IMG/VR virus record: IMGVR_UViG_3300037189_015940 | Location: 1 to 38,024 of that record | From: a virus | Reading direction: 5' to 3' (one strand) | Length of the DNA: 38,024 nucleotides | Part shown: positions 1,416-18,423 of the stretch, piece by piece | Numbering within the stretch: position 1 is the stretch's first letter | Layout of the letters: the number at the start of each line of letters is the position of its first letter | Notes under the pieces: model-generated | Databases searched by the model: none | What the model was told of the DNA's origin: nothing | What the model saw: only the letters and a program-made list of their open reading frames with translations | Made by a program: the position numbers and the translations under genes

Positions 1416-1794
1416 AGAATTAACTCCAGAATTGAAAGATATTTACTTATCAGAAACAGAAAGATGTGGTCAATTCAAAAAAGAAGATGTTTCAGATACC
1501 GATTTGGTAGGCTCTCACTTCTCATTTGAATCTTCTTCTCAAGGAGAGGAGTTTTGGTTTCAAGTGTGGAACAGTTTAACTGGAAATCTATTGCTAGATT
1601 GTGATTCTGACACGATAATTGTTGCAGGGCCTAATACCACATTCCCAGCTATATCAAAAGAGAAAACAATAAAAGACATTGATAAAATGGTTTTATTTAA
1701 AGACGGAGATTTAAAAGAGGTTATTTTTGATATTTCTGAAGCAAAAATCGAAATTAACGATTCCGGGAAAACGTTGACCATAAACTTAAAATAA
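1384..1794 (+). CDS. Hypothetical acidic protein (136 aa)
   Basis: A 136-codon frame starts at ATG 1384 (a second ATG follows at 1387) and overlaps the end of the DnaA-like gene by 32 bases in another frame. The product is acidic, with alternating strands in the C-terminal half (LLLDCDSDTIIVAGPNTTF, then ITLN-like ending TLTINLK), suggesting a small mainly beta fold. It has no membrane segment or signal peptide. No family is recognised. Its tight coupling to the DnaA-like gene hints at a shared role in early phage functions, but this is inference. Confidence 0.6.
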   Translation: MMSEIKLPQVKELTPELKDIYLSETERCGQFKKEDVSDTDLVGSHFSFESSSQGEEFWFQVWNSLTGNLLLDCDSDTIIVAGPNTTFPAISKEKTIKDIDKMVLFKDGDLKEVIFDISEAKIEINDSGKTLTINLK

Positions 1795-1806
1795 TCACTA
1801 TCTTTG
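1774..1806 (+). promoter_or_regulatory. Bacteroidota-type promoter for the DUF1064-like nuclease
   Basis: TTG at 1774-1776 (in TTGAC), a 22-base spacer and TATCTTTG at 1799-1806 fit the Bacteroidota promoter consensus. Transcription would begin around 1812, only a few bases before the ATG at 1819, giving an almost leaderless mRNA. The -33 part lies inside the end of the preceding gene. Confidence 0.55.
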
Positions 1807-1818
1807 TGTTTTCATCGT

Positions 1819-2256
1819 ATGAAGTACAATTCAAAAGCAAACACATATAAAGGTATTCGATTCAAGAGTCGATTAGAGACTTATATGTATAAATTGTTTG
1901 AAGGAGCCGGCATAAAAGCCGAGTACGAAAAACACAAGTATGAAATATTAAAGCCCTTCTTCTTTCCTTTTGACTGCTATGAAAAATCAATCAGAGGGAA
2001 GGCTTTGGTTAATAAGGGAAATAAAAAGATACAGGGTATAGTTTATACTCCTGACTTCGTTATAGAAGACCAAAACACAACCTATATCGTAGAAACAAAA
2101 GGTATTGCAACTCCAGATTTTATGGTTAGGTTTAAGCTTTTCAAGAATTGGTGTTTGAGCCAAGGCAAAGATTTCGTGATATTTATGCCTAGAAACCAGA
2201 CGCAGTGTAACGAAACGCTAGAAACAATACAACAAATGATAGAGGCCGCTAAATAA
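1819..2256 (+). CDS. DUF1064-type phage endonuclease
   Basis: The product (145 aa from ATG 1819) begins MKYNSKANTYKGIRFKSRLE, the typical opening of DUF1064 proteins, a PD-(D/E)xK-like nuclease family found in phages. The later core is YTPDFVIEDQNTTYIVETKG, where PDF...E-x-K supplies the D, E and K of the nuclease motif, followed by a helix TPDFMVRFKLFKNW. It probably cleaves branched or double-stranded DNA during recombination, repair or host DNA breakdown. An upstream TTG at 1804 extends the frame by five residues, but it overlaps the -7 element of the promoter, so ATG 1819 is preferred. The stop codon sits in the loop of the terminator. Confidence 0.72.
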   Translation: MKYNSKANTYKGIRFKSRLETYMYKLFEGAGIKAEYEKHKYEILKPFFFPFDCYEKSIRGKALVNKGNKKIQGIVYTPDFVIEDQNTTYIVETKGIATPDFMVRFKLFKNWCLSQGKDFVIFMPRNQTQCNETLETIQQMIEAAK

Positions 2257-2271
2257 CGGCCTCTTTTTTTA
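2241..2271 (+). terminator. Strong intrinsic terminator at the convergent gene border
   Basis: AGAGGCCG at 2241-2248 pairs perfectly with CGGCCTCT at 2257-2264 around an 8-base loop that contains the TAA stop of the nuclease gene, followed by T residues to 2270. The T-run serves rightward transcription; for the leftward operon, which ends at 2269, the hairpin is present but is not followed by a good T-run. Confidence 0.85.
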
Positions 2272-5200
2272 CTTCCTATACTCAGCTTCTATGAATTGAA
2301 CAAATCTAAACAAAGACTCTTTATCATTTGAGTAAATAATATCTTCATTCAATCTCTGAGTAAGAAATTCCAAATCAGAATCGCCCTTCTTGTAGCTCTC
2401 TATAAGCTCGTTAACATCCTTGCTTATATCTACAACTGGAGGAGGATTCTTTTTGTACTTCTCTATTTCTTTTCTAACATAAGCCAAATCCTCCATAGAC
2501 ATTTTTGCTTCTGACGATATAGCGTTTAATGTTTCTTTTCTCCAATACCTTTTAGCGGACTCAGGCATATTAGAGTCTAAAACCTCATTGATAAAGTTGT
2601 GGTTGTATTTTGTGTACAAAGCCACTTGCACACTATTATTTTTAACATCAAAGATATTCTTGAGCTTTTCCTTTGCTTCGGCTTGTTTTTTTCGCAACTC
2701 TTCTTTAGAGTAATTCTCACTACCTTTATAGTCAAGCCAAAACATATCAAATACAATATTATTCATTGCCCTGTCTTCTTTTTCTGCAAAAACCCTATTT
2801 TGTCTTTCAGAAAGATTTACACCCTTCTCTCTTAGATATTCTTTATTATAAATAACGTTGTTCTTAAAGTCATTTATACCGAAAGATATATTTCTTCCAA
2901 GAGGAGTAAGACCAATTGAGGCTAAGGCATCAGCTATTTTTCCGGCTCTACTTAACGTTTCGTTTTTATTTGTAGATAATGAGCCGGTATCTTCGTTTTT
3001 CTTTTCCGGTGTTACGGCCTTAAACACCTTTTCACCACCCTTTACCGCTATGTCCATCACTGGTATATTCGGGGTGTAGTCTCCTTCTTTCTTCTCAGAG
3101 AAAGCCACGTTATAACCTATATTCTTTTTTTGAGAACCACCAAATCTAGGCTCGTATTTCCCTGAATAAGTAATATCTTCTCCATACTGCTTATTGGCCT
3201 CTTCAATAGCCGAGGTTATAATCTCTCTAGAAACAGAGCCTCTTCCTTGTGTTGCTGTTTGTATAAGGGCGTCAATAATTATTCTTCTTTCTTTGTATAT
3301 TTTATCTTCCTCCGTTTCGTCTATTCTAGAAGTACCTTCTAGTAAGTTAGCATCTCCTTTATCATCATCGCCGGCTAACGCAGTAGCTATGGCCCCGCCT
3401 ATTGGCGCTAACAACAACAATTTTGTTGCTCTAATAACCTCCCCGTAAACTAAGTTTGAAGCTAATTTAACAGAAGCTGTCTTAACACCATCTATATTTC
3501 CCCTCCTGAAGGCGTCCTCAACAGCATTACCCTGAGCTAGATTGAACGAATTAAAAAACTGGTTTGCCATTCTCCATATATTATAACCAGCGCTATCTTT
3601 TGGAGACCTTCTTAGTTTTTCAGGTAAATTAAACGGGTTTTTTGTCCCAACAGTCTTTGATAGATTTGTGTCGGCATATAGTGATGATTCGTATATCGCA
3701 TCTCTATGTTTGTCCAAGTATTCAACATCTCCCTTTTCAATAGCTTTATAATCTGGCTTTTCACCTGTAATTTCCAAAAACTTAGCATCGAAAGAACCGT
3801 AAAATAACGGTATGGCCACAGCTACATCTGGATTATTAATCATTATTCTATTGAACTCCTGTAAGTAATCGTAATACTGACCAGTTGTCTTTTTGTTTAA
3901 AAACCTAATATTTTCAATCATTTTAGACTTTATCTCACTAGGTCTTTTGCTTCTTTTTCCTGAGCCTAAAACCTCTGCGCCTTGTAGTATTTTACTCTCA
4001 TTTGCTATACGAGAACCCTGTTGAGTTCCTATGTTTTCAATTACAGATGCGTGATTTACTTCGTTTGAAAGTATGTTTTTATACACGGCAATTCCTCTTA
4101 TAAGTTCTTGAGGGTTTTCCATTGCATTCACGACATTGGAAAACATATCTGCAAAAATCTTGTCAATACCAATTAGTTTCGTGCTTGTAGCCAATGTAGA
4201 GGCCGCGTCAAGAACCTCATCAGCAACGCTTTTCTTCATTAAACTTATACCAACAGTGGTCTCAAGTGCATTCTCGTAATCATTTTCAATTACAGTCAAC
4301 ACCTCTAATCTTTTGTTTTTTTCCGACTGACTCATGCTGCTTTCCAAAATTCCTTTTCTTACAGCCGACAGTGTTTTTGCGACAGTTTTGCTTTCAGAGT
4401 TTAACTTCAACAAGGACAACTCTCTTGCATTCATTTCGTAAACCCCAACAATGTCTTTTAAGTTCAAAACAAGTGAAGGCCCTGTTGCCCCAGCTTTCTC
4501 TTTCACAGAAGAAGCAACTGCTGATGGTCGACCTAAAAAGCTGCTTTTTATGTCTTCAAAAGTGTCTCCTCCTATTCTAGTTAGTCTTATTGGAAAATAC
4601 GACTCATTGGCTACGAATGGAGTTCCTTGTTGAAAGAAAGCATTCTCCTGAGCTAATGGGTTTGTTTCGTTTCTCGAATCATCAAGATTTTTTATTATGG
4701 ACTTTTCTGCTTCTGTTAAAGCTATGTTTTCACCTCTTTCAGTAGCTGCTTCAGCTTCAGATATAAGCTCCTTTAAAATATTGATTTCCGCCTCGTTGTA
4801 TATATCTTGTTTGGTTGGGTCGTTTAACACATCTCTAAAATATTGCGAAGCAGACCTAGCGTTTTTCATTCCAGCCAAGTGCATTCTTTGGACAAGAAAT
4901 ACTCCTAATCTTAAATTTGTTTTTATGATTTCGTTATCCTTACCTCCAGATATTTTTGATATTTCTTTCAAGGCTCCGTCAAAATAATCTCTCTGAAGTC
5001 TGTCTACAAATGTACTAGCTTCTCCAACAACACTTCCTGAGCGACCGTATACAGACTCATACAGAGGTCTTTCATTTTTACCTAAGTTTTTAAAGAATAA
5101 AGAATCCTTTGCAAAACCAAAGGACCCCCTTACTTTTTCTTTAATAGTAGATGTTTTTGTGCCAGCGATATTTTTAATTATCGACTTGGCTCTTGAAAAA

Positions 5201-6378
5201 TAACCAGTAAAGTTTACTGCAAATTTATCTCCAAAAACTGCCTCTAGTTTTTTTGACCGGTTAAATGCGTCTATATCAACTTTAAAAGACTCTAAAGTTC
5301 TCGACTGATAACCCATCTCCATCATAGATAAGGTGTTCAATAAATTTTCTGCCTTTGACTTACCTAATGTCGATAGATATTCTGGAGTTAAACCGCTTAA
5401 TACTTGGTCAAGCCTTTCTCTGGTGGCTTTGTCGAATAGTTGGCTAAAATTAGCTCTATTACTCTCTAATGAAGAAGAAACGTCATTTATCTCTTTTAAT
5501 GTTTCTGCGGAATCCCAAGGTTCTTTTTCTATCTCTAAAATCTCCTTTAAAGATTGAAATCTCTCTTGGTTTTCGATAATAAAGTCCCTTTCTGCGTTTG
5601 TTATAATTCCAGACTCATTCATTGCTATAGCAACATCAAGTAAGTCGTTTCTATTAATCAAATCGGAAGAGCCGGGAGATTCAGAGAACTCCCTTATTTT
5701 TTCAGATAAATAAGTTATGTTTTCTCTGCGTTTAAATATAACGTCCGACATCATTTTTGCTTCTTGAGAGGCCTGACTTGCAGTTGTTTTTTCAGAAAGA
5801 ACCCTCCCAAGCAAAGATTCATAACCGCTAATTTCAGAGGCTGGTATTTCTTCTACAGGTATAGACAGTAATCTTGAAAAATCTGTAAAACTACCCTCTT
5901 CTTTTACTAATTTTCCACTTTTTAATTTTTCAGATAAAGCTTTTCTTTTATTGTTTAGCTCTTTTTGCTTTCTTTCGTAATCTTTGATGGTAACAGTCTT
6001 GTCTAAAAGGTCAACGAACTTTTCGATAGCAATATTTTTGTTGGAGGCTCTCTCTATATTTAAAGCAGCCTTTGTTAGTGACCTTACGCTAGAACTATTG
6101 TATGTTCCGGAGCGAACAGCCTCGTTTAGCATATTGATTAAAAAACCAACTCTTTCCTTCATGTCGGATTTTTTTTCTACAGCAGAACGCTTTACTTCTT
6201 CTAATGCTTTACCAACAGCATCATTTTGGTCTTGAATAGATTTAGCATCAATCATTTCCTTTAAGGAAGATGCATCTATAACACCGTTTTTTAGAGCCTC
6301 TATTAACTCAGCTTCGCTTTTAAAGTTATGTGTTACTCCGTCTTTGTCTGTGTATGTAAAGCCACAAGGATTAGCCAT
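2269..6378 (-). CDS. Very large internal virion / ejection protein (1369 aa)
   Basis: Starting at ATG 6378 the product begins MANPCGFTYTDKDGVTHNF and contains FKSEAELIEALKNGVID, a short N-terminal pattern I associate with large phage internal proteins. It is mostly helical and highly charged, with long coiled-coil-like stretches, and one hydrophobic glycine-rich segment near residues 975-1010 (LLLLAPIGGAIATALAG) that could enter a membrane. No enzyme motif was found. A longer frame extends to 6531, but it overlaps the ferritin-like gene by 150 bases and the extension does not look like the family start, while ATG 6378 falls immediately after the ferritin stop. By position at the end of the tail/internal module it is probably carried in the capsid and ejected into the host. 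Confidence 0.7.
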   Translation of the reverse strand: MANPCGFTYTDKDGVTHNFKSEAELIEALKNGVIDASSLKEMIDAKSIQDQNDAVGKALEEVKRSAVEKKSDMKERVGFLINMLNEAVRSGTYNSSSVRSLTKAALNIERASNKNIAIEKFVDLLDKTVTIKDYERKQKELNNKRKALSEKLKSGKLVKEEGSFTDFSRLLSIPVEEIPASEISGYESLLGRVLSEKTTASQASQEAKMMSDVIFKRRENITYLSEKIREFSESPGSSDLINRNDLLDVAIAMNESGIITNAERDFIIENQERFQSLKEILEIEKEPWDSAETLKEINDVSSSLESNRANFSQLFDKATRERLDQVLSGLTPEYLSTLGKSKAENLLNTLSMMEMGYQSRTLESFKVDIDAFNRSKKLEAVFGDKFAVNFTGYFSRAKSIIKNIAGTKTSTIKEKVRGSFGFAKDSLFFKNLGKNERPLYESVYGRSGSVVGEASTFVDRLQRDYFDGALKEISKISGGKDNEIIKTNLRLGVFLVQRMHLAGMKNARSASQYFRDVLNDPTKQDIYNEAEINILKELISEAEAATERGENIALTEAEKSIIKNLDDSRNETNPLAQENAFFQQGTPFVANESYFPIRLTRIGGDTFEDIKSSFLGRPSAVASSVKEKAGATGPSLVLNLKDIVGVYEMNARELSLLKLNSESKTVAKTLSAVRKGILESSMSQSEKNKRLEVLTVIENDYENALETTVGISLMKKSVADEVLDAASTLATSTKLIGIDKIFADMFSNVVNAMENPQELIRGIAVYKNILSNEVNHASVIENIGTQQGSRIANESKILQGAEVLGSGKRSKRPSEIKSKMIENIRFLNKKTTGQYYDYLQEFNRIMINNPDVAVAIPLFYGSFDAKFLEITGEKPDYKAIEKGDVEYLDKHRDAIYESSLYADTNLSKTVGTKNPFNLPEKLRRSPKDSAGYNIWRMANQFFNSFNLAQGNAVEDAFRRGNIDGVKTASVKLASNLVYGEVIRATKLLLLAPIGGAIATALAGDDDKGDANLLEGTSRIDETEEDKIYKERRIIIDALIQTATQGRGSVSREIITSAIEEANKQYGEDITYSGKYEPRFGGSQKKNIGYNVAFSEKKEGDYTPNIPVMDIAVKGGEKVFKAVTPEKKNEDTGSLSTNKNETLSRAGKIADALASIGLTPLGRNISFGINDFKNNVIYNKEYLREKGVNLSERQNRVFAEKEDRAMNNIVFDMFWLDYKGSENYSKEELRKKQAEAKEKLKNIFDVKNNSVQVALYTKYNHNFINEVLDSNMPESAKRYWRKETLNAISSEAKMSMEDLAYVRKEIEKYKKNPPPVVDISKDVNELIESYKKGDSDLEFLTQRLNEDIIYSNDKESLFRFVQFIEAEYRK

Positions 6379-6379
6379 A

Positions 6380-6871
6380 TTAGAATAATTTTTTCTCCAA
6401 CAATAACATTGTGAATTTATCAGAAGGATTAACTCCTTCAAGCTTTCCAAGCATATCGCTATATGTAATAACGGCGTCTTTTTGAGCCTCCCTAAAGAAC
6501 TGTAAGAAGTCAAACGTGCAGACATCTCCAATATCCATCAGCTCTTTTGAACACTCATTGTATAAGCTATAAAGCTCATATTCCGTGTCATAAACAGTTT
6601 GTATTAGCTCTGATAAATTATTGTAATTAAGTTTTGAAGGGAACTCGACAGCAACGCTTGGGTCTACATTCCAATCTATCAGATAGTCTTGAATCTTTCT
6701 AGCGTGACCTAGTTCCTCGTCACTTTCTTTTATGAAAAAATCTCTTGCTAAGTCAAATCCGTTGTCTCTACACCAATTACTTGCTGCTTGATACGTGTAG
6801 TGATGCAAATACTCTTTTGAAATCTTTTTTGTTAGGATTTCTATAGTTTTAGGGTTGAGTGTTTTTAACAT
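6380..6871 (-). CDS. Ferritin-like di-iron protein
   Basis: The 163-aa product has the four-helix ferritin pattern and length. Likely ferroxidase ligands are in place: E20 with Y27 in helix A (KEYLHHYTYQAASNW), E53 and H56 in helix B (ESDEELGHARKIQDYLID, matching EExxHAxKLxxY), E97 or E99 in helix C, and Q130 in FLQFFREAQKDAV, which resembles bacterial ferritin FLQWFVxEQ. Ferritins oxidise Fe(II) and store ferric mineral in a 24-mer shell. The ATG at 6871 overlaps the stop of the 1222-aa gene, and the stop at 6380 abuts the start of the 1369-aa gene, so it is co-translated with internal virion proteins. Whether it is packaged or acts in the cell is unknown. Dps is less likely because Dps ligands sit in a different arrangement. 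Confidence 0.75.
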   Translation of the reverse strand: MLKTLNPKTIEILTKKISKEYLHHYTYQAASNWCRDNGFDLARDFFIKESDEELGHARKIQDYLIDWNVDPSVAVEFPSKLNYNNLSELIQTVYDTEYELYSLYNECSKELMDIGDVCTFDFLQFFREAQKDAVITYSDMLGKLEGVNPSDKFTMLLLEKKLF

Positions 6872-9800
6872 GGTATTTCTTTAATTTTTCCTTCTTTAAT
6901 TAATGCCGCTACAATCTCGTATGAACGTGACTCAAGCACTCTGTTATTTATGTCATTAACCTTGTTTTGCAAAGATACTTCTTTTTCATTTTGTGTTTTC
7001 GTAGGCTCTTCTTTTGTAAAAAGTTTATCCAATACTTCTCTTGATTCTGGGTTTATATCTAACTCAATCGGGCTTCCTTTGATGTTGTTATATATCTTCT
7101 CTAAATAATTTTTAGCACTTTGAAATATTGTCTTCAATTCATTTGTAGGAGCAATTCCATCATAGAAGTATTTTTCAACACCTCTAGCAAAAGCCTCACT
7201 TGTTTGTTCGGTCCAGCCTTCTGTTCCAGCCCAATCTTGAATCGTCTTCATTTGGCTTTCTGATAAATCTGATTCAAGTATTCGTCCTATTTGATTAATT
7301 GGTGTTTTTGAATCAGCGTCATTAAAAAACTCGATTACTTTTTTACCATCACTTAGCATTTCACTTGTTTTAGCAAAATCCTTAGATACGTTCTCAACTT
7401 TTCTATACCAACCATTACCAAGACCACTAGCTTCGGCCCTAGCATTCATTATACTAAGAACAAGTTTGATTTCGTTATTTAAGAAGCCTCTTTCGTGCAA
7501 AACCTCAGCCGTCTTCTTTTGAATAAACTCTGCGTGTTCAGCGTCAGTTCTCTTATCAAATGGTATAGCCTCAAGTTCAGTGGTTGATTTCTCATTAGAC
7601 ATAACCTGATACAAATACCTCTTAGCTTCCTCAGAATTGCTTACTTCTTTTACACTCGTATATCCCTCTGGAACTTCAGTTGGCACAGCATCTCCATTCT
7701 TCGTGCTGTAATAGAAAACATTCGATTTCAATTGCTCTGAATTGTAATCAATAACCGCTTTGTATCTCGCCTCTCTGTCTGTTATTTTTTCTCCAGTTTG
7801 CTGTTCGGCATTTTTCTTGGCCTCGGCAATTCTCTTTTCTTGGTCTGATTTTGAAAGCCCATAAAAACCATCGTTTCTTTTTCTTGAAGCGGTGTTTATT
7901 TCCTCTATCTTCTCGAATGCCCTTTTAAAACTTCTCTGCAACTCAGCAAGCTGTACTCTTTTGTCTTCTTTAGATAAGTCTGAATCCTTAACCCTTTCGG
8001 CTTCTTTTTTGATTTCCGCAACCTTATTTGAAAGGTCTAAAACCACCTTTCTATCCCCTTCAGGCATCAATTCTAGTCTATCTATAGAATCTTCCACAAC
8101 CTTTCTTGATTGAGACTCTAATCGCTCACCCTCCTTTATGAGTAGTTGTTTGGCCTCTGCGCTCAAGTTAGGGTCTTGTAACTTCTGACCTATTTCTGTC
8201 GCTCTCAAGGAGTTTTTATGCAGTAAGTTTAACTCCTTGCTATTCATATATGGAGAGGTCTGTTCTGCAACTATATGAGAGGCGACTACGTTCTGAGAAT
8301 GTAGTATTACAGCGTGAAGAGTCTGGTCTATTCCACCCCAAGATTTTGAGAAGTCAAATTCCTTACCAAGAACATATCTGTCGCTAAGACCGTTGATAAC
8401 GCTTGTTGAACGAAGAATAGCATCCAGTTTCACAGAATCTCGTAGGAACTTGCTAGCCTCTTGAGCGAACTTTTCCCTCATAGTCCTAGACAACATTTCC
8501 GGAGCTACACTCCTAATTATTGGGTTAAATATGGTTTTAACTTGAAAAGCCAACGGAAGATTTGTAGCTGCTCCATACAAAATAGCACCAGTCCAAGCTT
8601 GTCTACGCCCATATAAATCCTTGCCTTCGTTATTTTTTACATCGTAAGTTTTCCCTCCAAAGTCAAACTTATCCTTATTTGAATCTTTCGCTTCGTGTAA
8701 AGCCCGTTTAAACTCTCTGTTCTCCTGATTTATCTCTCTTAACTTAGCTCCAGTAGCATCTGCGGTAAGAGCAATAGTTCCAGCAACAGGACCTCCAGCA
8801 GTTATAGCGGCAACCATTCCAAGTCCGTCTCCAAAAATACTTGTAGTTTCGTTTATAAAACTACTAACATTTGTAACCTCCTTTACATCTCTAACTCCAG
8901 CCAGTTCTTTCTCCTGTGCTTCCGTAGCAATGTTTATAGCTTTCTCAACATCCTTCTGAGCCTCTTCTTCTCCAAGCAATGGAAATCCCGTGTCTTTCGC
9001 TAGGTCTTTTCCTAATTGATACATATTGGCTAAAGCACCCCAGCCCCACGCTTTTACTCTCTTTGCCATTTCAGCCAGTTCATTGGTCTCCGCAGAATAA
9101 CCACTTACGGCAGTTTTTAAGTTCTTAACCTTCTTGACCCCTTCATAATATTTTTTTCTTACTTTTAAATATTCTGAATAATACCCAGATATTAACGCCT
9201 CATTTTTGTCATACTCATTCTTTAACCTCTGAAACTCATCTTTGTCCTTGACGGTTCTAGCAGTATCAATAAGTTCGTTTCTTTTGTCCACAAGTTTATC
9301 CATACTAAGATTGAGCGCAGAAACCCTATCAAAGTCTAGTTTGTTTTCTTTTTCAGTAGCTTTTAGTAAGTTTCTACTAACTTTAGTTATAGCAAATCTT
9401 TCTTGAGGAGTCAACTTTTCAGTAGCATCATAATACTTATTTAGTAATAATGCGTCTTGCTTATTTTCAAAGAATCTATTTTTAACTCTTTCGGCCTTTT
9501 CTTCCGGTTTTAAATCCTTAAACTTTGGGTCTTCGATGGAAAGCTCTTCTCTTATGTCTGCAAAGTTATCTCCCTTTAAATCAACGACTGTTTGCCCGGT
9601 CATTTTCCCGGAAAGAGTATTCATGGCTGTTCTAAAAACATCCTCTGTCTCATCTAGAATACCAGTTCTTTGAACTTGAGCGTTGTATTCTCTTTCAATC
9701 GAATCTAAGTCTTCTCTTGTTATAGAAATATCACCTACTTTGGCTTTTGCTGAGTTGTACCAGTTAGATTCTTGAGCCTTAAATTCTTTTGCGGTATTAG

Positions 9801-10533
9801 AGTTCGCCATAAACTCTGTATTTCCATAAGTAATTTTTTTAAGACCCACACTGGTCTTTGCAAGCTGTCTATCGATGTCCTCTAAACTCTCTACGGACAA
9901 CGCTAATGATGGTGAGTTGAAGTCAATTTTAGGCAATTCAACAGGCTTTACCTCTACTCGTTGTGTTTGTGGATTATATACCTTTGACACTGTTTTTTCT
10001 GCCTCAGAAACAGCCTTAATTTTAGGTCTATCAACAACCTGAGTTACAATTTCTTTTTCAGGCAGTTTTGTTTTTTTAGACTCAATCAGCTTTTGTACAA
10101 TACCAGTAGGGACCTCTTCTTTTGATTTTCCTTGATTTGCCTTTTGCTTTTTCCAAAGCTCTATCTCCTTGCTGTTTTGTACTTTTTTGACAGTAGTATA
10201 TCCGGCCGGAACCTCTTTTGGCTCCGACTCCACATTGCCCACTTTAGGGTTTACGTTGTAGTAATATACGTTCTTATCTTCCTTCCCAGTAGAGGAAACC
10301 AAAGGCCGAGCCTGCTTTTGTTTTTTTGAAACCACAGAACCACGTTTGGGTGGTTGAGGCTGTTCTTGTGTAGTAGATTCCGAAACAACTTCTGTTGAGT
10401 TTAAACCTGACGGTTCGCTTGACTCTTTTTTTTTTAAGTCAAAACCATAAGCATCTGCCACGTCTTCAATAGTCGCATTTGTTTCTAATGCAATAGATTC
10501 TATTTCTTGTAGGGTTATCTTGTTTTCAGCCAT
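6865..10533 (-). CDS. Very large internal virion protein with degenerate zincin-like C-terminal domain (1222 aa)
   Basis: The protein opens with a small helical region (KITLQEIESIALETNATIED) and a low-complexity Ser/Glu/Gln/Pro stretch (about 36-75). A short motif occurs twice: residues 89-121 (NVYYYN...EVPAGYTTVKKVQNSKE) and about 938-970 (NVFYYS...EVPEGYTSVKEVSNSEE). A glycine/alanine-rich hydrophobic stretch lies around residues 570-600. The C-terminal part (about 1075-1190) has INQIGRILESDLSESQ then SEAFARGVEKYFYDGIAPT and YLEKIYNNIKG, which resembles the metallopeptidase-like domain of phage polyvalent proteins, but the HExxH site reads NQIGR. It is probably ejected with the DNA. It overlaps the ferritin-like start. 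Confidence 0.68.
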   Translation of the reverse strand: MAENKITLQEIESIALETNATIEDVADAYGFDLKKKESSEPSGLNSTEVVSESTTQEQPQPPKRGSVVSKKQKQARPLVSSTGKEDKNVYYYNVNPKVGNVESEPKEVPAGYTTVKKVQNSKEIELWKKQKANQGKSKEEVPTGIVQKLIESKKTKLPEKEIVTQVVDRPKIKAVSEAEKTVSKVYNPQTQRVEVKPVELPKIDFNSPSLALSVESLEDIDRQLAKTSVGLKKITYGNTEFMANSNTAKEFKAQESNWYNSAKAKVGDISITREDLDSIEREYNAQVQRTGILDETEDVFRTAMNTLSGKMTGQTVVDLKGDNFADIREELSIEDPKFKDLKPEEKAERVKNRFFENKQDALLLNKYYDATEKLTPQERFAITKVSRNLLKATEKENKLDFDRVSALNLSMDKLVDKRNELIDTARTVKDKDEFQRLKNEYDKNEALISGYYSEYLKVRKKYYEGVKKVKNLKTAVSGYSAETNELAEMAKRVKAWGWGALANMYQLGKDLAKDTGFPLLGEEEAQKDVEKAINIATEAQEKELAGVRDVKEVTNVSSFINETTSIFGDGLGMVAAITAGGPVAGTIALTADATGAKLREINQENREFKRALHEAKDSNKDKFDFGGKTYDVKNNEGKDLYGRRQAWTGAILYGAATNLPLAFQVKTIFNPIIRSVAPEMLSRTMREKFAQEASKFLRDSVKLDAILRSTSVINGLSDRYVLGKEFDFSKSWGGIDQTLHAVILHSQNVVASHIVAEQTSPYMNSKELNLLHKNSLRATEIGQKLQDPNLSAEAKQLLIKEGERLESQSRKVVEDSIDRLELMPEGDRKVVLDLSNKVAEIKKEAERVKDSDLSKEDKRVQLAELQRSFKRAFEKIEEINTASRKRNDGFYGLSKSDQEKRIAEAKKNAEQQTGEKITDREARYKAVIDYNSEQLKSNVFYYSTKNGDAVPTEVPEGYTSVKEVSNSEEAKRYLYQVMSNEKSTTELEAIPFDKRTDAEHAEFIQKKTAEVLHERGFLNNEIKLVLSIMNARAEASGLGNGWYRKVENVSKDFAKTSEMLSDGKKVIEFFNDADSKTPINQIGRILESDLSESQMKTIQDWAGTEGWTEQTSEAFARGVEKYFYDGIAPTNELKTIFQSAKNYLEKIYNNIKGSPIELDINPESREVLDKLFTKEEPTKTQNEKEVSLQNKVNDINNRVLESRSYEIVAALIKEGKIKEIPC

Positions 10534-10535
10534 AT

Positions 10536-12059
10536 TTATTTTTCATTAGCTTTTTTAGTACGGAATGAGTTTGTATTTGTATCAAAAATAAGACCTAACT
10601 CTCGGTTAAAGTAGTTTCTCATTTTTATTTTAACATCATTACTAATGTTTTGCTCAATTGCCTTCTTGTATATATAATTGCCTATGTCCAAGACACTCTC
10701 AAAAGTTTTCTCTTTATCATCAACATCAAGGTATTTGACGCCTCTTAATTGCTGAATAAATGCAACAGCATTATCCCCAGATAAAACTTCTGTTTTGCCT
10801 CCAATAGATGACTGGCCTAACTTAGATGAAGCTGGGCCAGTACTGGTCCCCAAAGAGTCGGAAGATTTTTGTCTGTATTGGAAAATAGCTTCTCCCGAAG
10901 AAGGGATAAAACCCAATCCAGTAGCTACTCTATCTGAAAATTCACCTTTTTCGCCGCTTATTGTCCAAATGGTTGCTTTTTTGGAAACCATAGAAGGTTC
11001 TTTTTTACCAGCTTCTTGTATAGCTATTTTAGTGTTAATTGTCACTGGGGAAAGCGGGTCTACAAAAGGAATTTTATTTGCAGCATTTCTTGATGAAAAA
11101 CCTCTAGCCTCATCCTCTGCTTTAACATCTTTTAACTTGTAAACCTGCTTTACTTTTTCGTATAGAGCATTTGAAACGTCATCGTAATCTTCTTTTGTGT
11201 ATTCTTTTTTTGGATTTCTAAACCTATCATCATTCGGAAGTAACTGATTAGCAACGTCGGCAAACAGTGCATTGCTACTCATCAAAACCTCTCTTGCTGT
11301 TTTTTTTAAGGTTTCGGAGTCTTCGTTGTCCAAGAAAGTTTTATCTATCGTTATGGAGCCATCCTCTCTCTTTCTTTGATAAACACCCACAGAACTTGCT
11401 ATGTTTTGAACCAGACCTTTTCCATCCTCTCCAACTAAGCTCGTTGAAGGTATTACCGATGCCTTCCAGTTAACAACCTCGTTAAGAGTAACATACGGCT
11501 TGGACTCTCCAAAAGAATTAGTCACATTTACTAATATAGGATTTCCATCCCCCCCAACTTCTAGCCTTCCATCAGACCTTGTTTTGTAAGGAATAAACAC
11601 AGTTTCCCCGTCGACATCTTTTACATCATAATTACCGTTTATTATGGAGTTAAAAGCCTCTGTAAAAGCAAGACTGGCTTTTGATATTTCTTTCTTTTCA
11701 AGAGCTTCGTTGTAGGCTTTAAAACTTTCCTTCGCTTTTCCCATTTGACTTACAAGCATATAAGCTTGTTGCTCAACTAAATTTGCCCCAGCTATGTCTC
11801 CAGCAGAAATTCTGTTGTAGTACTCAGTTTGCTTTGAAGCTAACTTTTCAGTTTGTAAAACGTCAAATTTAATGTGTCCAGTCGTTTGAGCCCTTACTTC
11901 TAGTGGCTTTACTTCTTTTTCTTTAGGCTTAGCGGCCGCTTTAGCCAACCTCTTTTCGTCTGCTTCTTGCTGAAATTTTTGAGCATTCAAAGCCACTTCT
12001 CCAAAATCAACTTTGGGAGCTGTTACAGTTGCAAATGCATTTGTTTTACCTATTGCCAT
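10536..12059 (-). CDS. Putative internal virion / cargo protein (507 aa)
   Basis: The product starts MAIGKTNAFATVTAPKVDFG and has a charged Lys/Glu/Ala helix (residues 25-55) followed by helical segments resembling internal core proteins of podoviruses (ATGHIKFDVLQTEKLASKQTEYYNRI). The middle contains beta-rich stretches and the end is charged (FRTKKANEK). No catalytic motif is seen. It begins 2 bases after the end of the 186-aa gene and ends 2 bases before the 1222-aa gene, so the three are expressed together. By position and composition it is probably a capsid-interior protein released during infection, comparable to the cargo proteins of crAss-like phages; this rests on context. Confidence 0.6.
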   Translation of the reverse strand: MAIGKTNAFATVTAPKVDFGEVALNAQKFQQEADEKRLAKAAAKPKEKEVKPLEVRAQTTGHIKFDVLQTEKLASKQTEYYNRISAGDIAGANLVEQQAYMLVSQMGKAKESFKAYNEALEKKEISKASLAFTEAFNSIINGNYDVKDVDGETVFIPYKTRSDGRLEVGGDGNPILVNVTNSFGESKPYVTLNEVVNWKASVIPSTSLVGEDGKGLVQNIASSVGVYQRKREDGSITIDKTFLDNEDSETLKKTAREVLMSSNALFADVANQLLPNDDRFRNPKKEYTKEDYDDVSNALYEKVKQVYKLKDVKAEDEARGFSSRNAANKIPFVDPLSPVTINTKIAIQEAGKKEPSMVSKKATIWTISGEKGEFSDRVATGLGFIPSSGEAIFQYRQKSSDSLGTSTGPASSKLGQSSIGGKTEVLSGDNAVAFIQQLRGVKYLDVDDKEKTFESVLDIGNYIYKKAIEQNISNDVKIKMRNYFNRELGLIFDTNTNSFRTKKANEK

Positions 12060-12061
12060 AA

Positions 12062-12622
12062 TTACTTTTTGGAAAGAGCGTCAATATATTTCTGTGTTTG
12101 AATAGAATTAGCAATTCCTTGAGCACCACTGGTCAATCCTTGAAGGCCACCTTGAAGACCACCCATTAAAGACTGCTGTCCGGCGTTAAATTGAGAAGAA
12201 AGAGCCGCAATATCTTGCATATACCGTTGTTCTCTCATTCCTCTTAAATTAGCCTCTTCTTGAGCAATCATCTTACTTCTTTCAGCTAATTGTCTATCTA
12301 TGTCTGCGCCTATAGCTTGAGCTTGCTTGTTTTGTTCTGCGACTAAGTTTTGGGCTCCCCCAACCAATCCTCTAACACCTCCAGCAGATAGTGAGTCCAT
12401 AGCCGTCCCTACGGCAGAAGACAACATTTCTTTTTGCATTTCGGCTCCCTTAGTAGCCACTTGTATTCCTTCTGCATAGTTTTGTAACTCAGGGACTTTA
12501 TATTGCTCTAAAGCTTTTTGAGCATCCTTTTGCATTTCAGCTCCTTTTATTGCCTGAAAGATTCCTCCCCCGGCAGACGCTAATCCAGTAGCACCCATTA
12601 TAAAACTTGTTGCTGCCGCCAT
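12062..12622 (-). CDS. Putative internal virion protein, gp14-like (186 aa)
   Basis: The product begins MAAATSFIMGATGLASAGGG, a hydrophobic Gly/Ala-rich N-terminus, then runs as Ala/Gln/Met-rich amphipathic helix (KGAEMQKEMLSSAVGTAMDS, AQAIGADIDRQLAERSKMI) and returns to a Gly/Leu-rich stretch (SLMGGLQGGLQGLTSGAQG). This organisation resembles the small ejection proteins of podoviruses such as T7 gp14, which forms the outer-membrane part of the DNA ejection channel. The motif KGAEMQK appears twice (residues 26-32 and 58-64), suggesting an internal duplication. It lies directly upstream of the larger internal protein genes, as in other podoviruses. Function is inferred from composition and position. 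Confidence 0.55.
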   Translation of the reverse strand: MAAATSFIMGATGLASAGGGIFQAIKGAEMQKDAQKALEQYKVPELQNYAEGIQVATKGAEMQKEMLSSAVGTAMDSLSAGGVRGLVGGAQNLVAEQNKQAQAIGADIDRQLAERSKMIAQEEANLRGMREQRYMQDIAALSSQFNAGQQSLMGGLQGGLQGLTSGAQGIANSIQTQKYIDALSKK

Positions 12623-12623
12623 A

Positions 12624-13019
12624 TTATTTTAATATTTTTACTAATTCAACACAATTTTGACTTCCTATTTGAAAGTCGTTTTTAACATAATCGTTTATTA
12701 AAGAGTGGTTTTTTAAAGAGGCATACCCAATTCTGTATCCCATCTGTTTCCCAATTTCACAAAGAGATGAAATCAAATACGAAATTGATTGTCTTCTCAA
12801 TGGCTTGTCTTTTACGTTTGGATTTGATACTATAAACTCAATCCAACACATTGCAGAGTTGGTTTTGTATAAAAAACCGGCACACACGGGTATTTCTCCA
12901 TCAAATACCATTATTCCAGTTTGCGGTAAACAATCGGCTGGAGGCGCAGTAAATCTCCAAAAAGACCACCATTCGCACAACATTCCGTAATCATTATACG
13001 TTACAAATCTGTAATTCAT
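12624..13019 (-). CDS. GNAT-like N-acetyltransferase (131 aa)
   Basis: The sequence follows the GNAT fold: a strand pair FDGEIPVCAGFLYKTNSAMC, then IEFIVSNPNVKDKPLRRQSI in the region of the acetyl-CoA binding motif (strand 4, loop and helix), a helix SYLISSLCEIGKQMGYRIG, then ASLKNHSLINDYVKNDFQIG, where GNATs place the last strands and the GF residues. The pyrophosphate-binding R/Q-x-x-G-x-G/A loop is not canonical. GNATs transfer acetyl groups from acetyl-CoA to amines. The gene sits between tail and internal virion genes, so it may act on a host protein or a virion component; the target is unknown. A -7-like element lies just upstream. Confidence 0.6.
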   Translation of the reverse strand: MNYRFVTYNDYGMLCEWWSFWRFTAPPADCLPQTGIMVFDGEIPVCAGFLYKTNSAMCWIEFIVSNPNVKDKPLRRQSISYLISSLCEIGKQMGYRIGYASLKNHSLINDYVKNDFQIGSQNCVELVKILK

Positions 13020-13040: not shown

Positions 13041-13799
13041 TTATTGATACGATTTGACGGCATCGGCGTTTAAAGCGTAAAGAGTGGTCTCTGTTGAGTG
13101 ACTTTCTGTTGTTAGCTTAACCTTTGCGTAAACTCCTTTTACACCGTAACTTTCCGCTATTGGGTTTTTAGCAACAAAAACAATTCCGCCGGCAGGATAA
13201 GAATATGGGGTAACAGGAGCCTGAATGGTTATGGAATTACCCGTGTAAGCAGTGACAGTTGAAACCGGTTCGTAAGATTGTGTGTTTGGGCTGTATATAC
13301 AAAGAATGTCTCCAATAGAAACAACGTTTGGTATATTGCTAAAAGAAAATACGTTTGATAAAAAAGACGTTGGAACACCAATTCCCTGTATTGACAGTAG
13401 GTCAAAATTAAGAGTTGAGTTTGCATCTCTCCTTATGAATGCATAATGCTCACCCTCTCTTACACTAAAACTTTCTCTGTTGATGTGACCAGAATCTAAA
13501 TTTGTCTCTATCAACAAATCAAAGTTATTCACATTTGCCTCGATGCAAATTGTCTTAAACTCTTTAACCTCACTAGGGGCTTGATTAATAACTGTTTGTA
13601 TGTAAGACGGGAAAACCTCGTAGTTTCCATTGTTATTATAAAATCTGTTTATAGGGGCAGAGCTGACATTGTGAAGTGCCAGCTTACCCTTTTTAAACGT
13701 ATACATATCGCCTTTAATTTTAACGTAAGACTCTGGCTCAAAAGACCAGTTGGAAGTCCAACCGTTATTTTTCTCGTCAAAAGAAATTGTTTTTCCCAT
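13041..13799 (-). CDS. Tail-associated structural protein (252 aa)
   Basis: The product begins MGKTISFDEKNNGWTSNWSF, followed by EPESYVKIKGDMYTFKKGKL and a beta-rich body with SEVKEFKTICIEANVNNFDL and SREGEHYAFIRR-like strands. This NNGWTS...FEPE...YTFKKG...FKTI...EGxxYAF pattern occurs in proteins encoded directly after the large tail hub in Bacteroidota podoviruses, and I expect a beta-sandwich tail or fibre-adaptor protein. It starts 1 base after the stop of the 1540-aa gene, indicating coupled expression. There is no membrane segment or enzymatic motif. The exact place in the virion cannot be decided from sequence. Confidence 0.6.
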   Translation of the reverse strand: MGKTISFDEKNNGWTSNWSFEPESYVKIKGDMYTFKKGKLALHNVSSAPINRFYNNNGNYEVFPSYIQTVINQAPSEVKEFKTICIEANVNNFDLLIETNLDSGHINRESFSVREGEHYAFIRRDANSTLNFDLLSIQGIGVPTSFLSNVFSFSNIPNVVSIGDILCIYSPNTQSYEPVSTVTAYTGNSITIQAPVTPYSYPAGGIVFVAKNPIAESYGVKGVYAKVKLTTESHSTETTLYALNADAVKSYQ

Positions 13800-13800
13800 A

Positions 13801-16800
13801 TTAAATGCTACAAAATAATGATTCTGAATACGTATTGTATTGCTCTTGTAAAATTATATTTCCTCCAATCTGTGTTACAGAACCCGGTCTACAACATATT
13901 ACAGGGTCTCCAATCTCGTCGTTAAACACGTATTCCTTGTATAAAAATGGATTTCCGTTAGACACGATAGGTATTGTAAATTCAATTGTCTGAACATTAT
14001 CAAGACAGTCTGTGTACTGAAACTCAATAACTTCATTCTCTCCTTCTAATACGTTTGACAAATACTTGAATGAGGTAAATCTAAAGCAAGATTCTGAAGA
14101 GTTAACAGTTATATTTATGCTTCCTTGATAGCTACATCCAAACTCATCTGTAACAGAGTATATAATGAAGTCAGAACTTCCGCTTTCGTTTGTATATACA
14201 ATATCGTTGTCAACAACCTCTGCTGTACCATTTGATGCTCCGGAAACTATACCTACAATTACACTTCCTTCGTAAGTATCGTTTCCAAGTACATTTATTG
14301 TTAGGGTCTCTCCCTCGTTTAGAGATACATTGTCATCCTCAACAGATATTTTAGAAGCGCAATCCCAAACAATGTATAGTTTAGAATTTACAGAAGGTTT
14401 TGAAAACACAAAAGAACCGCTAGCAAAGTTTCCTGAAAAGTCGAGAGATAACCAAACTGCTTCGTCAAGAACCTGATTTACATCTAAAGAGTCTTCTGTT
14501 ACAAAATACCCAATTCTGTTGCATGGCTTGAAGTCAAAAGAACCGTCCTTAGCGTAAACGTTAATTGTAGCTCCATCCTGTGGTATTTCATTTATACCCT
14601 CTTGACCGATTAAGTTTTCAAATCTAGACACTCCATCTGATTCAAAAACTTCGTTATTTGAGTTTCCACCTACAACGCCAATTAATGGATTAGACCAACT
14701 GTACCCAGTCTGCATTGATTTACCTGCGTCTGTATCGTCATTGACAACAAGTAGAACAACTTCTCCTTCGTTTAGTTCGGGGCACTCAGCCTGAATGGTG
14801 TATTGAGAAGAGTCTTCCTCCGTGCTCAATGTGATAATCACTAAATCAGCAACAGTGTTCTTTTCGTACTCCACAACACCTGACCCTTCCAATCTACTGT
14901 ATGTAGATACGTTTTCTCCATCAGAAACAACCATTCTTGATTCAGAAGAAAAATTGTAAGGTATATTCATTGTAAACGACTGCTTAGGAGCCGGCACGTT
15001 AAACACTATTTCTTCGTCGGGAATAATAGTTCCTGATACAGTTAAGTTACAGGGAGTTTCAACATCTTCAACTGGTTTTTCTAAATCGGAAAAAGTTAAA
15101 TAGTACTGCTGCTTTTTATCGTCAAATCCACCAAAAATAAAATTATTGATGTATTGGTCGAATAACTTAACAAATTCAGCAATCATTCCGTAAACAGATA
15201 TTGGTTGAATACCATCTCCTCCCAATCTTAGTACAGCTCTTTTATTTGCGTCCGCAAAATATATTGAGTTGCCGTAAAAAGCAAAAGATTCCGGGTTATT
15301 CCCAATACCAAACTCACCAGCATACGGAACTTCATTTCCCAAGACACTTTCTACAGAAGCGACCTGTCCTCCTCCAACTGAGTCAAAAAGTATGTTTTTA
15401 GTGTACAATATATTGTGAACTTTATATTGCTGAAAAACAATTAAATTCGTGTCTTTAGTAAATAGCTTTTGAATAGAACCATATCTATCATCCAAGTCTT
15501 TGTAGTTAGCTCTTGATAAGTTAAATTCATTAAGAGAATTGTAATTCGACGTTTCGTCAAAAGCTCCGCTATAAGTTAAAGATGCAATATTCCTGTTCGC
15601 TTTGTATCCGTCTATCTCCACTCCATTTCCTCTCGTAGCGGTGGACAAAAAGTTTCCATTAAACTTATCTCTTACAATGTAGCTTTCGGCTCCATTCCCT
15701 TGAGAATAACAGTTAAAATAGTTAAGGGTTATTTCACAAGGCGTATTTGCCGATATGTCTTGGTCTTCGTCAGAGCTGTATTTTCCTAAATGATTCCCAG
15801 ACCCATCAATCAAGTAGGTATCTTGAGTTTCGTAGAATATCTGAGAAGATTTATCTTTTGGGTCTGTTTCAAAAATAAGTAAGTTATCAGAAGATAATAT
15901 AGTTATTTTCGTGTACATAAACGTTCTGTTCTGTGCGTTACCATTCATTATACTTGTAACACCACAGTACAAATAACCAGTCCCTGTAATTGGGTTTTGA
16001 TTCTGAGGAAGTGATGGGTCTAAACCATCCTCTACTCTAAAGAAATTTGTAGTGAAAGGATTCGCAGACACAACTTCGGCCTGATAAAAATCATAGAAGT
16101 TAGCATACGTATTTAAAGCCACAAAGTCTTTTTCAAAAACATATCTGCCTCCATTACTTCCTCCTTTTTCATTTCTGTAAAAAATAGTAACTTTAGAACC
16201 AGCCTTAATCTCGTAATCAGTATACGAAGTTCCATCAAATGTCGTAAACAAAGAAGACCTTGCCGTGGCTGAACCATTCCTTATAGCTGAGTTAGCCTCT
16301 ACCTCCTTGTATATTTGCTCTGCATTAGCAAAATCAATAGAGTATATGTTTTTGATTTTTATGTAGTTCCCGGCCGGCTCCTCAAAAGTAGTGGATTGAA
16401 TAAAGTCTGGTGCTTGAGTTCTGTAATCTAAAACCTCTATTTTAGTTAGCACATCGGTAGGCCCGTCCAAATCTCTTTTTAGTATCAAATTATCCCCAAC
16501 AGCTACCTTTTGGTTTTCTAGACCCTCTAGCTTCAACCAAAGATAATTCCCGTCCTTAAAAACAAATGTTGCGTAAATATTTTGATACTCAAGCTTATTG
16601 TCTTTAACGAATATTTTGTACCTATTCGCCCACGCAGGAGCTTTGTGGTTAATGTTGATTTTTATTTGGTTTTTTTTGTCGCTTTCCGATATAGGTATAA
16701 AGACAGTTCCGTCTGAAATAGTTTCATTTGCAATAACAGTGCTATATCTTCCGGACCCGTCTAAGTAAACAATGCCACATTCATAACTTCTGTTTGTTTT

Positions 16801-18423
16801 ACAACTAGCGAATGCGCTTCCTTCACTTAAAGTCGCGACAAAAGACATCTCTGTAAACTTGAAATATTCTATAAAGTTTGTTTCATCGTATACTTCTGGA
16901 GTGGTTGGATAATTAGTCCACACACGGTGTTTCACAAATGGCAGCTTGATGTTCAACAAGTTAACATCTGTAGAAGATATTATTTGAAATGGCTGAAACT
17001 TATCAGGATATGTATTATCCTCATTATCAACGGGAATTATTTGCGATTGGTTTTTAAAGTTTTCAGTAGCTACAACAGATATGAAGTTTATAAAGTCAGG
17101 GTCAAGAGACAGCTCTTGAGCGTTATTATAATCTTTGGCACAATAATATGATATGTCGCAGTTATAAACACTTCCTCCAAAAAATATTCCAGAAAATGAA
17201 GACGTATTGGATGTTGCAATAAGCGATATGTTTATCACGTTGTCTTTTCTAATCGGTGTATTAGTAAAGTCTATTGAGACCACATCATTAACAATGTTAA
17301 TGTCTGAAAAAGAAGGAGGAACTTCAGAGTCAGAAAAACTTTCAGAAACATAGTTAACATCAAAATCCGCCTTTACCTCATCACCATCAATGTCAACCAA
17401 GTCTCTACCCTCTACGTAATTTCCGTAAATCAACCTGTTTCCAATAAATTCTTGAGCCTGAGCTTTTAGAGGTACGTTGTCAAAAAGTCTTTTTATTTCG
17501 TCCTCTGCTAAAATGCTATATATTTTGTTGTTGGAGAACACAAAGTCCTTGGTCGTATTGTCTGACCAGAATTTCTTGCTCTTATTGAATGTGTCAATTA
17601 TGTATACAAAACTAGAGTTGCTCTCTCTGAAAACCAATTGGACATCAGTTACGTTTCTATCTCCAGTATTAAATTCAACCTTTACTCCGTTAAACTGATT
17701 TATCATACCAGAGTTTTCCTGAGTAAGATAGTCAAGTCTAAAGTTAGCAGGGTAGAACTGAGGATTTGAAAATGTAGACAAAGCACTGTACTCACCGTCA
17801 ATATACTTATATCGATAAGCAAAAGATAAAAACCTTTCCTTTATGTTGTTTTCAACACCCGTACCCACAATAGCGGGAGTACACACAGGAGCCTCAAAGG
17901 GTGGCTTTTTGTAGAGAGATATATCATCACTGTTGAATCCATTTAAACCATATCCCTTAGCTCTCCCTATATTTACGCATCTAATGTCGTTTAGATTGTC
18001 AGTCCAAACTAATAGTTTTTGTTGGTTAAATGAATTGTAAATTACATTAATACCGGTAACATAGTATTTTGGGTCGAAGTTTAAAACATTGCTACCAGCA
18101 TCTCTATCGTCTTCAAGAACTACAGATGTGTTTCCGCTTAACTCACTGTATTCTAATACTAAGTTTTTAGTAGGCGAATAAACAAGCCAGTATATACAAG
18201 AATTTGCCTCATCAGCTATAGAGCCAATACATATAGATTCCTCTGGAAGTTGGTATGTTGACACAAACTCAAGCCCATATACGTTTTGAACGGACCCAAC
18301 TTTTTGCCCTTCGCTATTTGATACGATAACGTTTAAAGCGTCAATATACTCCCCGTCAGGTACAAGTCTAAGGTCTAAATCCTTATTCATTTTACCCGAA
18401 ACAAATTGTCTTTTTAACTCCAT
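13801..18423 (-). CDS. Large tail hub/muzzle protein with cadherin-like domain (1540 aa)
   Basis: The N-terminus (MELKRQFVSGKMNKDLDLRL, then VPDGEYIDALNVIVSNSEG and VGSVQNVYG) is the standard opening of the large tail-stabilisation or muzzle protein of podovirus tails in this group. Next come repeated beta-rich blocks (YRYKYIDGEYSALSTFSNPQF) that look like a propeller and fibronectin-type modules. Around residues 1357-1440 there is a cadherin-like/Big domain: SVEDDNVSLNEGETLTINVL, GNDTYEG, then YSVTDEFGCSYQGSINITV. The protein probably forms the tail tip that receives fibres and controls DNA exit. Its ATG overlaps the stop of the 294-aa connector gene. No depolymerase residues are recognisable. 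Confidence 0.75.
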   Translation of the reverse strand: MELKRQFVSGKMNKDLDLRLVPDGEYIDALNVIVSNSEGQKVGSVQNVYGLEFVSTYQLPEESICIGSIADEANSCIYWLVYSPTKNLVLEYSELSGNTSVVLEDDRDAGSNVLNFDPKYYVTGINVIYNSFNQQKLLVWTDNLNDIRCVNIGRAKGYGLNGFNSDDISLYKKPPFEAPVCTPAIVGTGVENNIKERFLSFAYRYKYIDGEYSALSTFSNPQFYPANFRLDYLTQENSGMINQFNGVKVEFNTGDRNVTDVQLVFRESNSSFVYIIDTFNKSKKFWSDNTTKDFVFSNNKIYSILAEDEIKRLFDNVPLKAQAQEFIGNRLIYGNYVEGRDLVDIDGDEVKADFDVNYVSESFSDSEVPPSFSDINIVNDVVSIDFTNTPIRKDNVINISLIATSNTSSFSGIFFGGSVYNCDISYYCAKDYNNAQELSLDPDFINFISVVATENFKNQSQIIPVDNEDNTYPDKFQPFQIISSTDVNLLNIKLPFVKHRVWTNYPTTPEVYDETNFIEYFKFTEMSFVATLSEGSAFASCKTNRSYECGIVYLDGSGRYSTVIANETISDGTVFIPISESDKKNQIKININHKAPAWANRYKIFVKDNKLEYQNIYATFVFKDGNYLWLKLEGLENQKVAVGDNLILKRDLDGPTDVLTKIEVLDYRTQAPDFIQSTTFEEPAGNYIKIKNIYSIDFANAEQIYKEVEANSAIRNGSATARSSLFTTFDGTSYTDYEIKAGSKVTIFYRNEKGGSNGGRYVFEKDFVALNTYANFYDFYQAEVVSANPFTTNFFRVEDGLDPSLPQNQNPITGTGYLYCGVTSIMNGNAQNRTFMYTKITILSSDNLLIFETDPKDKSSQIFYETQDTYLIDGSGNHLGKYSSDEDQDISANTPCEITLNYFNCYSQGNGAESYIVRDKFNGNFLSTATRGNGVEIDGYKANRNIASLTYSGAFDETSNYNSLNEFNLSRANYKDLDDRYGSIQKLFTKDTNLIVFQQYKVHNILYTKNILFDSVGGGQVASVESVLGNEVPYAGEFGIGNNPESFAFYGNSIYFADANKRAVLRLGGDGIQPISVYGMIAEFVKLFDQYINNFIFGGFDDKKQQYYLTFSDLEKPVEDVETPCNLTVSGTIIPDEEIVFNVPAPKQSFTMNIPYNFSSESRMVVSDGENVSTYSRLEGSGVVEYEKNTVADLVIITLSTEEDSSQYTIQAECPELNEGEVVLLVVNDDTDAGKSMQTGYSWSNPLIGVVGGNSNNEVFESDGVSRFENLIGQEGINEIPQDGATINVYAKDGSFDFKPCNRIGYFVTEDSLDVNQVLDEAVWLSLDFSGNFASGSFVFSKPSVNSKLYIVWDCASKISVEDDNVSLNEGETLTINVLGNDTYEGSVIVGIVSGASNGTAEVVDNDIVYTNESGSSDFIIYSVTDEFGCSYQGSINITVNSSESCFRFTSFKYLSNVLEGENEVIEFQYTDCLDNVQTIEFTIPIVSNGNPFLYKEYVFNDEIGDPVICCRPGSVTQIGGNIILQEQYNTYSESLFCSI

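Follow-up and report, generated by a model that had tools for sequence, protein, structure and literature searches.

Why would a phage keep a ferritin gene among the genes for its largest virion proteins, and what would the product do there? The locus that raises this question lies in an IMG/VR virus record of 38,024 nt, the whole of which is called the window here. A sister contig of 65.6 kb is near-identical to it (5 mismatches in 16.4 kb) and has ends that overlap by 203 bp at 96.6%; it is probably a nearly complete genome. The window TerL matches those of Cellulophaga phage phi19:3 and the Flavobacterium elemo phages at 39-42%. Cultured phages with related TerL infect Flavobacterium, Cellulophaga, Tenacibaculum and Maribacter, and the host is probably a flavobacteria-like bacterium. 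By its PF25729 muzzle domain and TerL homology only, the phage is classed as a putative Crassvirales/Pachyviridae-like podovirus. The sister contig (L176) also encodes GroES- and GroEL-like proteins (1336-1593 and 1593-3182), as do MW202828 and elemo relatives.

The ferritin ORF described in an earlier note on this DNA is present where it had been placed, on the minus strand (Table 1). Its product matches the Pfam Ferritin profile PF00210, the search that the note had proposed, at 67.1 bits (E=2e-18) against a curated cut-off of 24.5 bits. By phmmer, E. coli FtnA-type chains match at 4e-15 and bacterioferritins far more weakly (3e-4); the unnamed phage family phrog_16594 is matched at 5e-16. 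AlphaFold2 models, with a pLDDT of 89.7 when bacterial relatives are the input and 93.8 when phage relatives are, contain the four-helix bundle on which the earlier identification depended, followed by a C-terminal helix E. The helices of the model with pLDDT 93.8 span residues 7-37, 40-66, 86-113, 117-143 and 152-162. Foldseek places E. coli FtnA and the Vibrio cholerae ferritin as the closest folds (TM 0.86-0.90). We conclude that, by family and predicted fold, the product is a non-heme ferritin, and it would presumably assemble as a 24-mer cage. Identity as a Dps was rejected, as helix E is present, the intra-subunit ligands are conserved and the best matches are ferritins.

Alignment with FtnA (FtnA numbering in brackets) assigns the two-iron ferroxidase ligands to E20 (E17), Y27 (Y24), E53 (E50), H56 (H53), E97 (E94) and Q130 (Q127). 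All six are invariant in 61 of 61 distinct phage ferritins and align at conserved positions, and the ferroxidase site, which the earlier note had called apparently intact, reads as intact. Five of the ligands listed there stand unchanged, and its choice of "E97 or E99" settles as E97. Membership among the three-iron FtnA proteins was rejected, the C-site ligands E49, E126, E129 and E130 being E52, A129, D132 and A133 in the window ferritin. Across the 61 phage proteins, 31 have Ser and 30 have Ala at the E130 equivalent and none has Glu; the E126 equivalent is Glu in only three, and the E49 equivalent is mostly Asp. Judged by these substitutions, the phage ferritins have lost the third iron site (C) that FtnA has in bacteria. 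Ala or Ser at the E130 position presumably resembles the animal H and M chains. The phage ferritin is thus like FtnA (E. coli, PDB 1eum; Vibrio cholerae, 3qz3) in fold, length, helix E and the six ligands, at 28-31% identity, but differs at the C site, in its C-terminal tail (..MLLLEKKLF) and in W67 and R127, which are invariant in the phage proteins and absent from the bacterial set compared.

Table 1. Features of the late gene block around the ferritin gene (window positions).
Feature	Position	Strand	Description	Basis
Ferritin gene	6380..6871	minus	163 aa, 19.2 kDa, pI 4.7	PF00210, AlphaFold2, Foldseek, alignments
N-terminal part of split giant internal-virion protein (putative)	6865..10533	minus	1222 aa	homology to unsplit giant
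C-terminal part of split giant internal-virion protein (putative)	2269..6378	minus	1369 aa, from ATG 6378	homology to unsplit giant
Putative internal virion (cargo) protein preceding giant	10536..12059	minus	507 aa	position
Virion structural protein	12062..12622	minus	186 aa	phrog_13764 'virion structural protein', 1e-17; elemo homolog, 40%
Muzzle C-terminal domain protein	13041..13799	minus	252 aa	PF25729, Pfam, 3e-8
Bidirectional terminator-like hairpin	2241..2264	.	10 pairs	consensus match only

The late block runs from terminase, portal, scaffold, capsid, ring-like proteins and a 1540-aa protein to the muzzle C-domain, and continues with a GNAT-like gene, the 186-aa virion protein, the 507-aa protein, the 1222-aa protein, the ferritin and the 1369-aa protein; the names ring-like, scaffold and cargo are tentative and given by position. 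Presence of the muzzle C-domain assigns the module to the crassvirus-like tail/cargo region; phiCrAss001 has gp44 as its muzzle protein and gp45 and gp46 as cargo proteins (PMC10172136). The 507-aa protein has a 533-aa homolog at the same position in contig G049 (E=1e-14), and its place corresponds to that of phi38:1 gp100, a 'structural protein'. The hairpin closes the block just past the last giant gene, and was the only excess over shuffles in a promoter and terminator scan.

Two further features of this region were observed. The muzzle C-domain is a gene of its own, beside 13801-18423, whereas in elemo gp22 and phi38:1 gp97 it is the C-terminus of one protein; a putative glycosidase gene sits in that break in MW202828. 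Like the giant, this large virion gene is divided, and in some relatives the break holds an insert. In about 20 compared loci, a conserved gene of 131 aa (12624-13019; GNAT-like, phrog_17252) lies between the muzzle C-domain and the virion protein.

The ferritin gene is tightly joined to both neighbors. Upstream, the stop codon of the 1222-aa gene overlaps the ferritin ATG by 7 nt (ATGTTAA), as the earlier note had it; downstream, where an overlap had also been claimed, the next ATG abuts one base past the ferritin TAA (TAA T ATG), a 1-nt gap. The 1420-aa ORF listed downstream was rejected as a TTG over-extension of the 1369-aa gene. Among distinct loci with two giants, all 25 have an upstream ferritin junction that abuts or overlaps (-7 to +14 nt).

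Comparison with relatives indicates what the two neighbors are. In G046, the nearest relative that lacks a ferritin (TerL 72%, MCP 83%), one ORF encodes 2488 aa, to which the 1222-aa protein aligns over aa 134-872 (its own aa 204-933, E=1e-52) and the 1369-aa protein over aa 1295-2176 (its own aa 145-984, E=5e-37). At another ferritin locus (L278), the C-terminal half aligns over its whole length to residues 1133-2488 of this unsplit giant (E=4e-162). Both ferritin flanks match one unsplit giant in order at 11 ferritin loci, the window included, and the giant is a single ORF in 15 of 15 ferritin-less relatives checked, among them Elemovirus, phi38:1, phi19:3 and MW202828; these 26 loci share ancestry and are not independent events. 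Since the halves match unsplit giants in order and the ferritin-less giants are single, the ferritin gene occupies a break in an ancestral giant gene, of which the 1222- and 1369-aa genes are, by homology, the N- and C-terminal parts. The earlier note was right about the location, although what it took for two very large internal virion genes reads as two halves of one.

A role for the giants as internal-virion proteins can be suggested from their homologs. Pfam gave no domain in the two encoded by the window. The 1222-aa protein has a homologous module in contig G004, which also matches the Cellulophaga phage phi38:1 'structural protein' gp101; phi38:1 gp100 is likewise annotated as structural. 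Residues 503-1006 of the 1369-aa protein match elemoE gp18 (aa 2795-3318). At other ferritin loci, the giant downstream of the ferritin in contig G082 has a match at 5e-34 to phrog_22602 ('virion structural protein'), and that upstream in L284 carries a ddrB-like ParB (ddrB-ParB) domain (1e-25). This domain is typical of phage polyvalent proteins, which are predicted to be packaged, and a processed form of P1 DdrB is present in the head (PMC5512222). Toward the C-terminus of the 1222-aa protein, residues 1047-1176 resemble parts of giant proteins from phages that are not related to it (a Leptolyngbya phage, Bordetella phage BPP-1 with Bbp10, and phrog_9880).

Close relatives mostly lack the ferritin. 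Among 50 records found mostly via the 1540-aa protein, the sister contig alone has one above cut-off, and 2 of 45 records found via TerL carry one, indicating that the gene is dispensable. The gene is nevertheless not confined to this phage, and the survey of the same locus that the earlier note had suggested found it in place in two relatives: G082 (931 aa, ferritin, 1931 aa; ferritin 54.5% identical to that of the window) and G049 (1130 aa, ferritin, 1338 aa; 46% identical). A scan of viral contigs with the window ferritin returned the sister contig only; the same scan with an alignment of the window, G082 and G049 ferritins returned at least 141 relatives, of which 80 loci were fetched. A same-strand gene of at least 700 aa directly adjoins the ferritin in 56 of these 80 loci, and does so on both sides in 36. 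Giants flank 24 of 51 ferritins on both sides, vs 1 of 263 other genes of 120-260 aa at the same loci, a contrast that is descriptive only given the shared ancestry of the loci. In other layouts the ferritin follows a giant of about 3300 aa, or lies in the order giant, ferritin, 145 aa, TerL, portal (L334, L336, L344). Members of the same clade also occur among small genes, away from giants, in contigs of up to 256 kb (L319-L345). A tblastn search of 50,697 phage records with the window ferritin found no significant match (the best was to a ferritin of a Thermus phage, E=0.04), and a phage-clade query of the same set likewise gave no significant match, which indicates that the cultured phages in the set lack the clade.

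The phage ferritins are separated with full support from a bacterial set that is proteobacterial and Helicobacter only, while support for their internal order is mixed; the window ferritin, next to G082 and L268/L270, has a long branch. When genome contigs were scanned with an alignment biased toward FtnA, the matches came only from Helicobacter and from Enterobacteriaceae with their relatives. The dN/dS of phage ferritins has a median of 0.067 and a maximum of 0.21 (42 pairs), and the gene is under strong purifying selection. Within this sampling we recognize a phage-specific ferritin clade that appears embedded in a late internal-virion module.

With slightly better than even confidence, we take the best explanation of the locus to be a late two-site ferritin that is made in step with the giants and acts in the infected cell. 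An ancestor would have inserted the gene into a giant cargo/ejection-protein gene, leaving two abutting genes. From the operon layout, the ferritin would be expressed late, from within the internal-virion block, and the abutting starts would have it translated in step with the giant proteins. The product would be a catalytically competent two-iron ferritin with an H-type site and no FtnA C site, taking up and oxidizing free Fe(II) in the late phase of infection. Less free iron would mean less Fenton damage to DNA during its replication and packaging, and less to enzymes with FeS or di-iron centers; the ferritin may also withhold iron from the host. A link with the giant cargo gene in particular, and not just with any place in the late block, exceeds what a purely cytosolic role needs.

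A second explanation, possible although less probable, is that the particle takes up ferritin, as subunits or as cages, together with the giant ejection/polyvalent proteins. The ferritin would then either remain in the head as an iron load or enter the next host along with the DNA and bind iron at entry. Adjacency to giant internal-virion genes persists across rearrangements, whether between halves or after giants of about 3300 aa, and the virion annotation and ddrB-ParB domain of related giants, the latter a hallmark of polyvalent proteins, fit packaging. An assembled ferritin cage, however, is 12 nm in size and too large to pass a podovirus tail intact. No packaging-tag extension is visible on the giant-flanked ferritins at the loci checked (163-172 aa, the same length as FtnA). 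No ORF fusing ferritin and giant was found in the fetched loci, where one match was non-significant (E=0.01). Co-expression alone, moreover, explains the layout. The crassvirus head cargo zone of about 1.1e7 A3 (PMC10172136) would hold several 12-nm cages by volume. A protein detected by mass spectrometry in Vi01-like phages was modelled as a ferritin, but that is a Phyre2 match and the iron-uptake mutant test in that study was negative (PMC10892097). Action in the cytosol of the infected cell is favored over packaging, and we regard as less likely than not the specific claim that this phage clade evolved its two-site ferritin as a dedicated part of the virion cargo, one that assembles with the split giant ejection proteins and travels in the particle. 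Were it true, each infection would deliver, or each particle export, iron-handling capacity, and no ferritin of a phage would have been shown to belong to an ejectosome before.

It is improbable that the gene is a passenger of host origin that settled where a modular giant gene has a linker tolerant of inserts, and that is kept for a weak antioxidant benefit of a general kind, with no functional tie to the giants. The presence of ferritin is patchy, the insertion region is variable between giant-protein modules, and these giants carry other enzyme-like inserts (one resembling GNAT in G004, which scores below cut-off, and DUF3293 in elemo), all as a passenger would predict. Against this stand the strong purifying selection, the single phage clade well apart from the sampled bacterial FtnA (proteobacterial sampling), and a location that stays fixed while the flanking proteins diverge to about 25% identity or beyond recognition. 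Nothing was found in favor of host contamination or mis-assembly, which was rejected as a negligible prospect, given the near-identical second contig with overlapping ends and the same arrangement in independent contigs of other samples.

Ferritin-superfamily proteins are known from other phages. Dps and Mn-catalase genes occur in gut phages ('Gratiaviridae'; PMC8008677) and a Dps-like gene lies near replication genes in Lactobacillus phages (PMC6669764); as here, such proteins, ferritin-like ones included, have been suggested to manage iron or ROS in the course of infection. Those published cases are of Dps or Mn-catalase type, whereas the present protein is classed as a true ferritin with helix E in a giant-gene block. 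Thermus phage phiLo (MH673673) has an annotated 'putative ferritin', and BFVD lists a few phage ferritins. Also in BFVD, several proteins from uncultured phages that are annotated as 'prohead protease' or as 'Dps' of large size (A0A6J7XDU5, A0A6J7WPK9 and others) weakly match the ferritin fold, possibly reflecting ferritin-like domains in head-assembly proteins.

Giant multidomain internal-virion proteins encoded in late blocks, with variable enzyme domains, are known as polyvalent proteins (P1 DdrB, N4 vRNAP; PMC5512222) and as the crassvirus cargo proteins gp45-gp50 (PMC10172136). One ferritin-adjacent giant shares the ddrB-ParB domain with the former, but the ferritin has an ORF to itself, placed between the halves, and is not a domain of the giant; a term search of the main text of PMC5512222 gave no mention of ferritin. 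Under the Ferrojan horse hypothesis and its HxH tail-fiber iron, marine phage particles are proposed to carry host-derived iron (PMC11705849). That iron sits in tail fibers for receptor use, in contrast to the predicted oxidizing iron store described here, which has no fiber link. A literature search, mostly without subscription journals, found no prior description of the clade or of its split-gene location; phage ferritins and Dps were already known, and the clade, its site chemistry and its location appear to be new.

The position of the ferritin beside or within a giant gene suggests that iron handling is part of making or delivering particles. Phage effects on iron have so far been argued mostly from tail fibers and scattered Dps genes; whether phages carry or manage iron by means of a ferritin becomes directly testable. 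The locus also indicates that accessory enzymes can split giant virion proteins rather than fuse to them.
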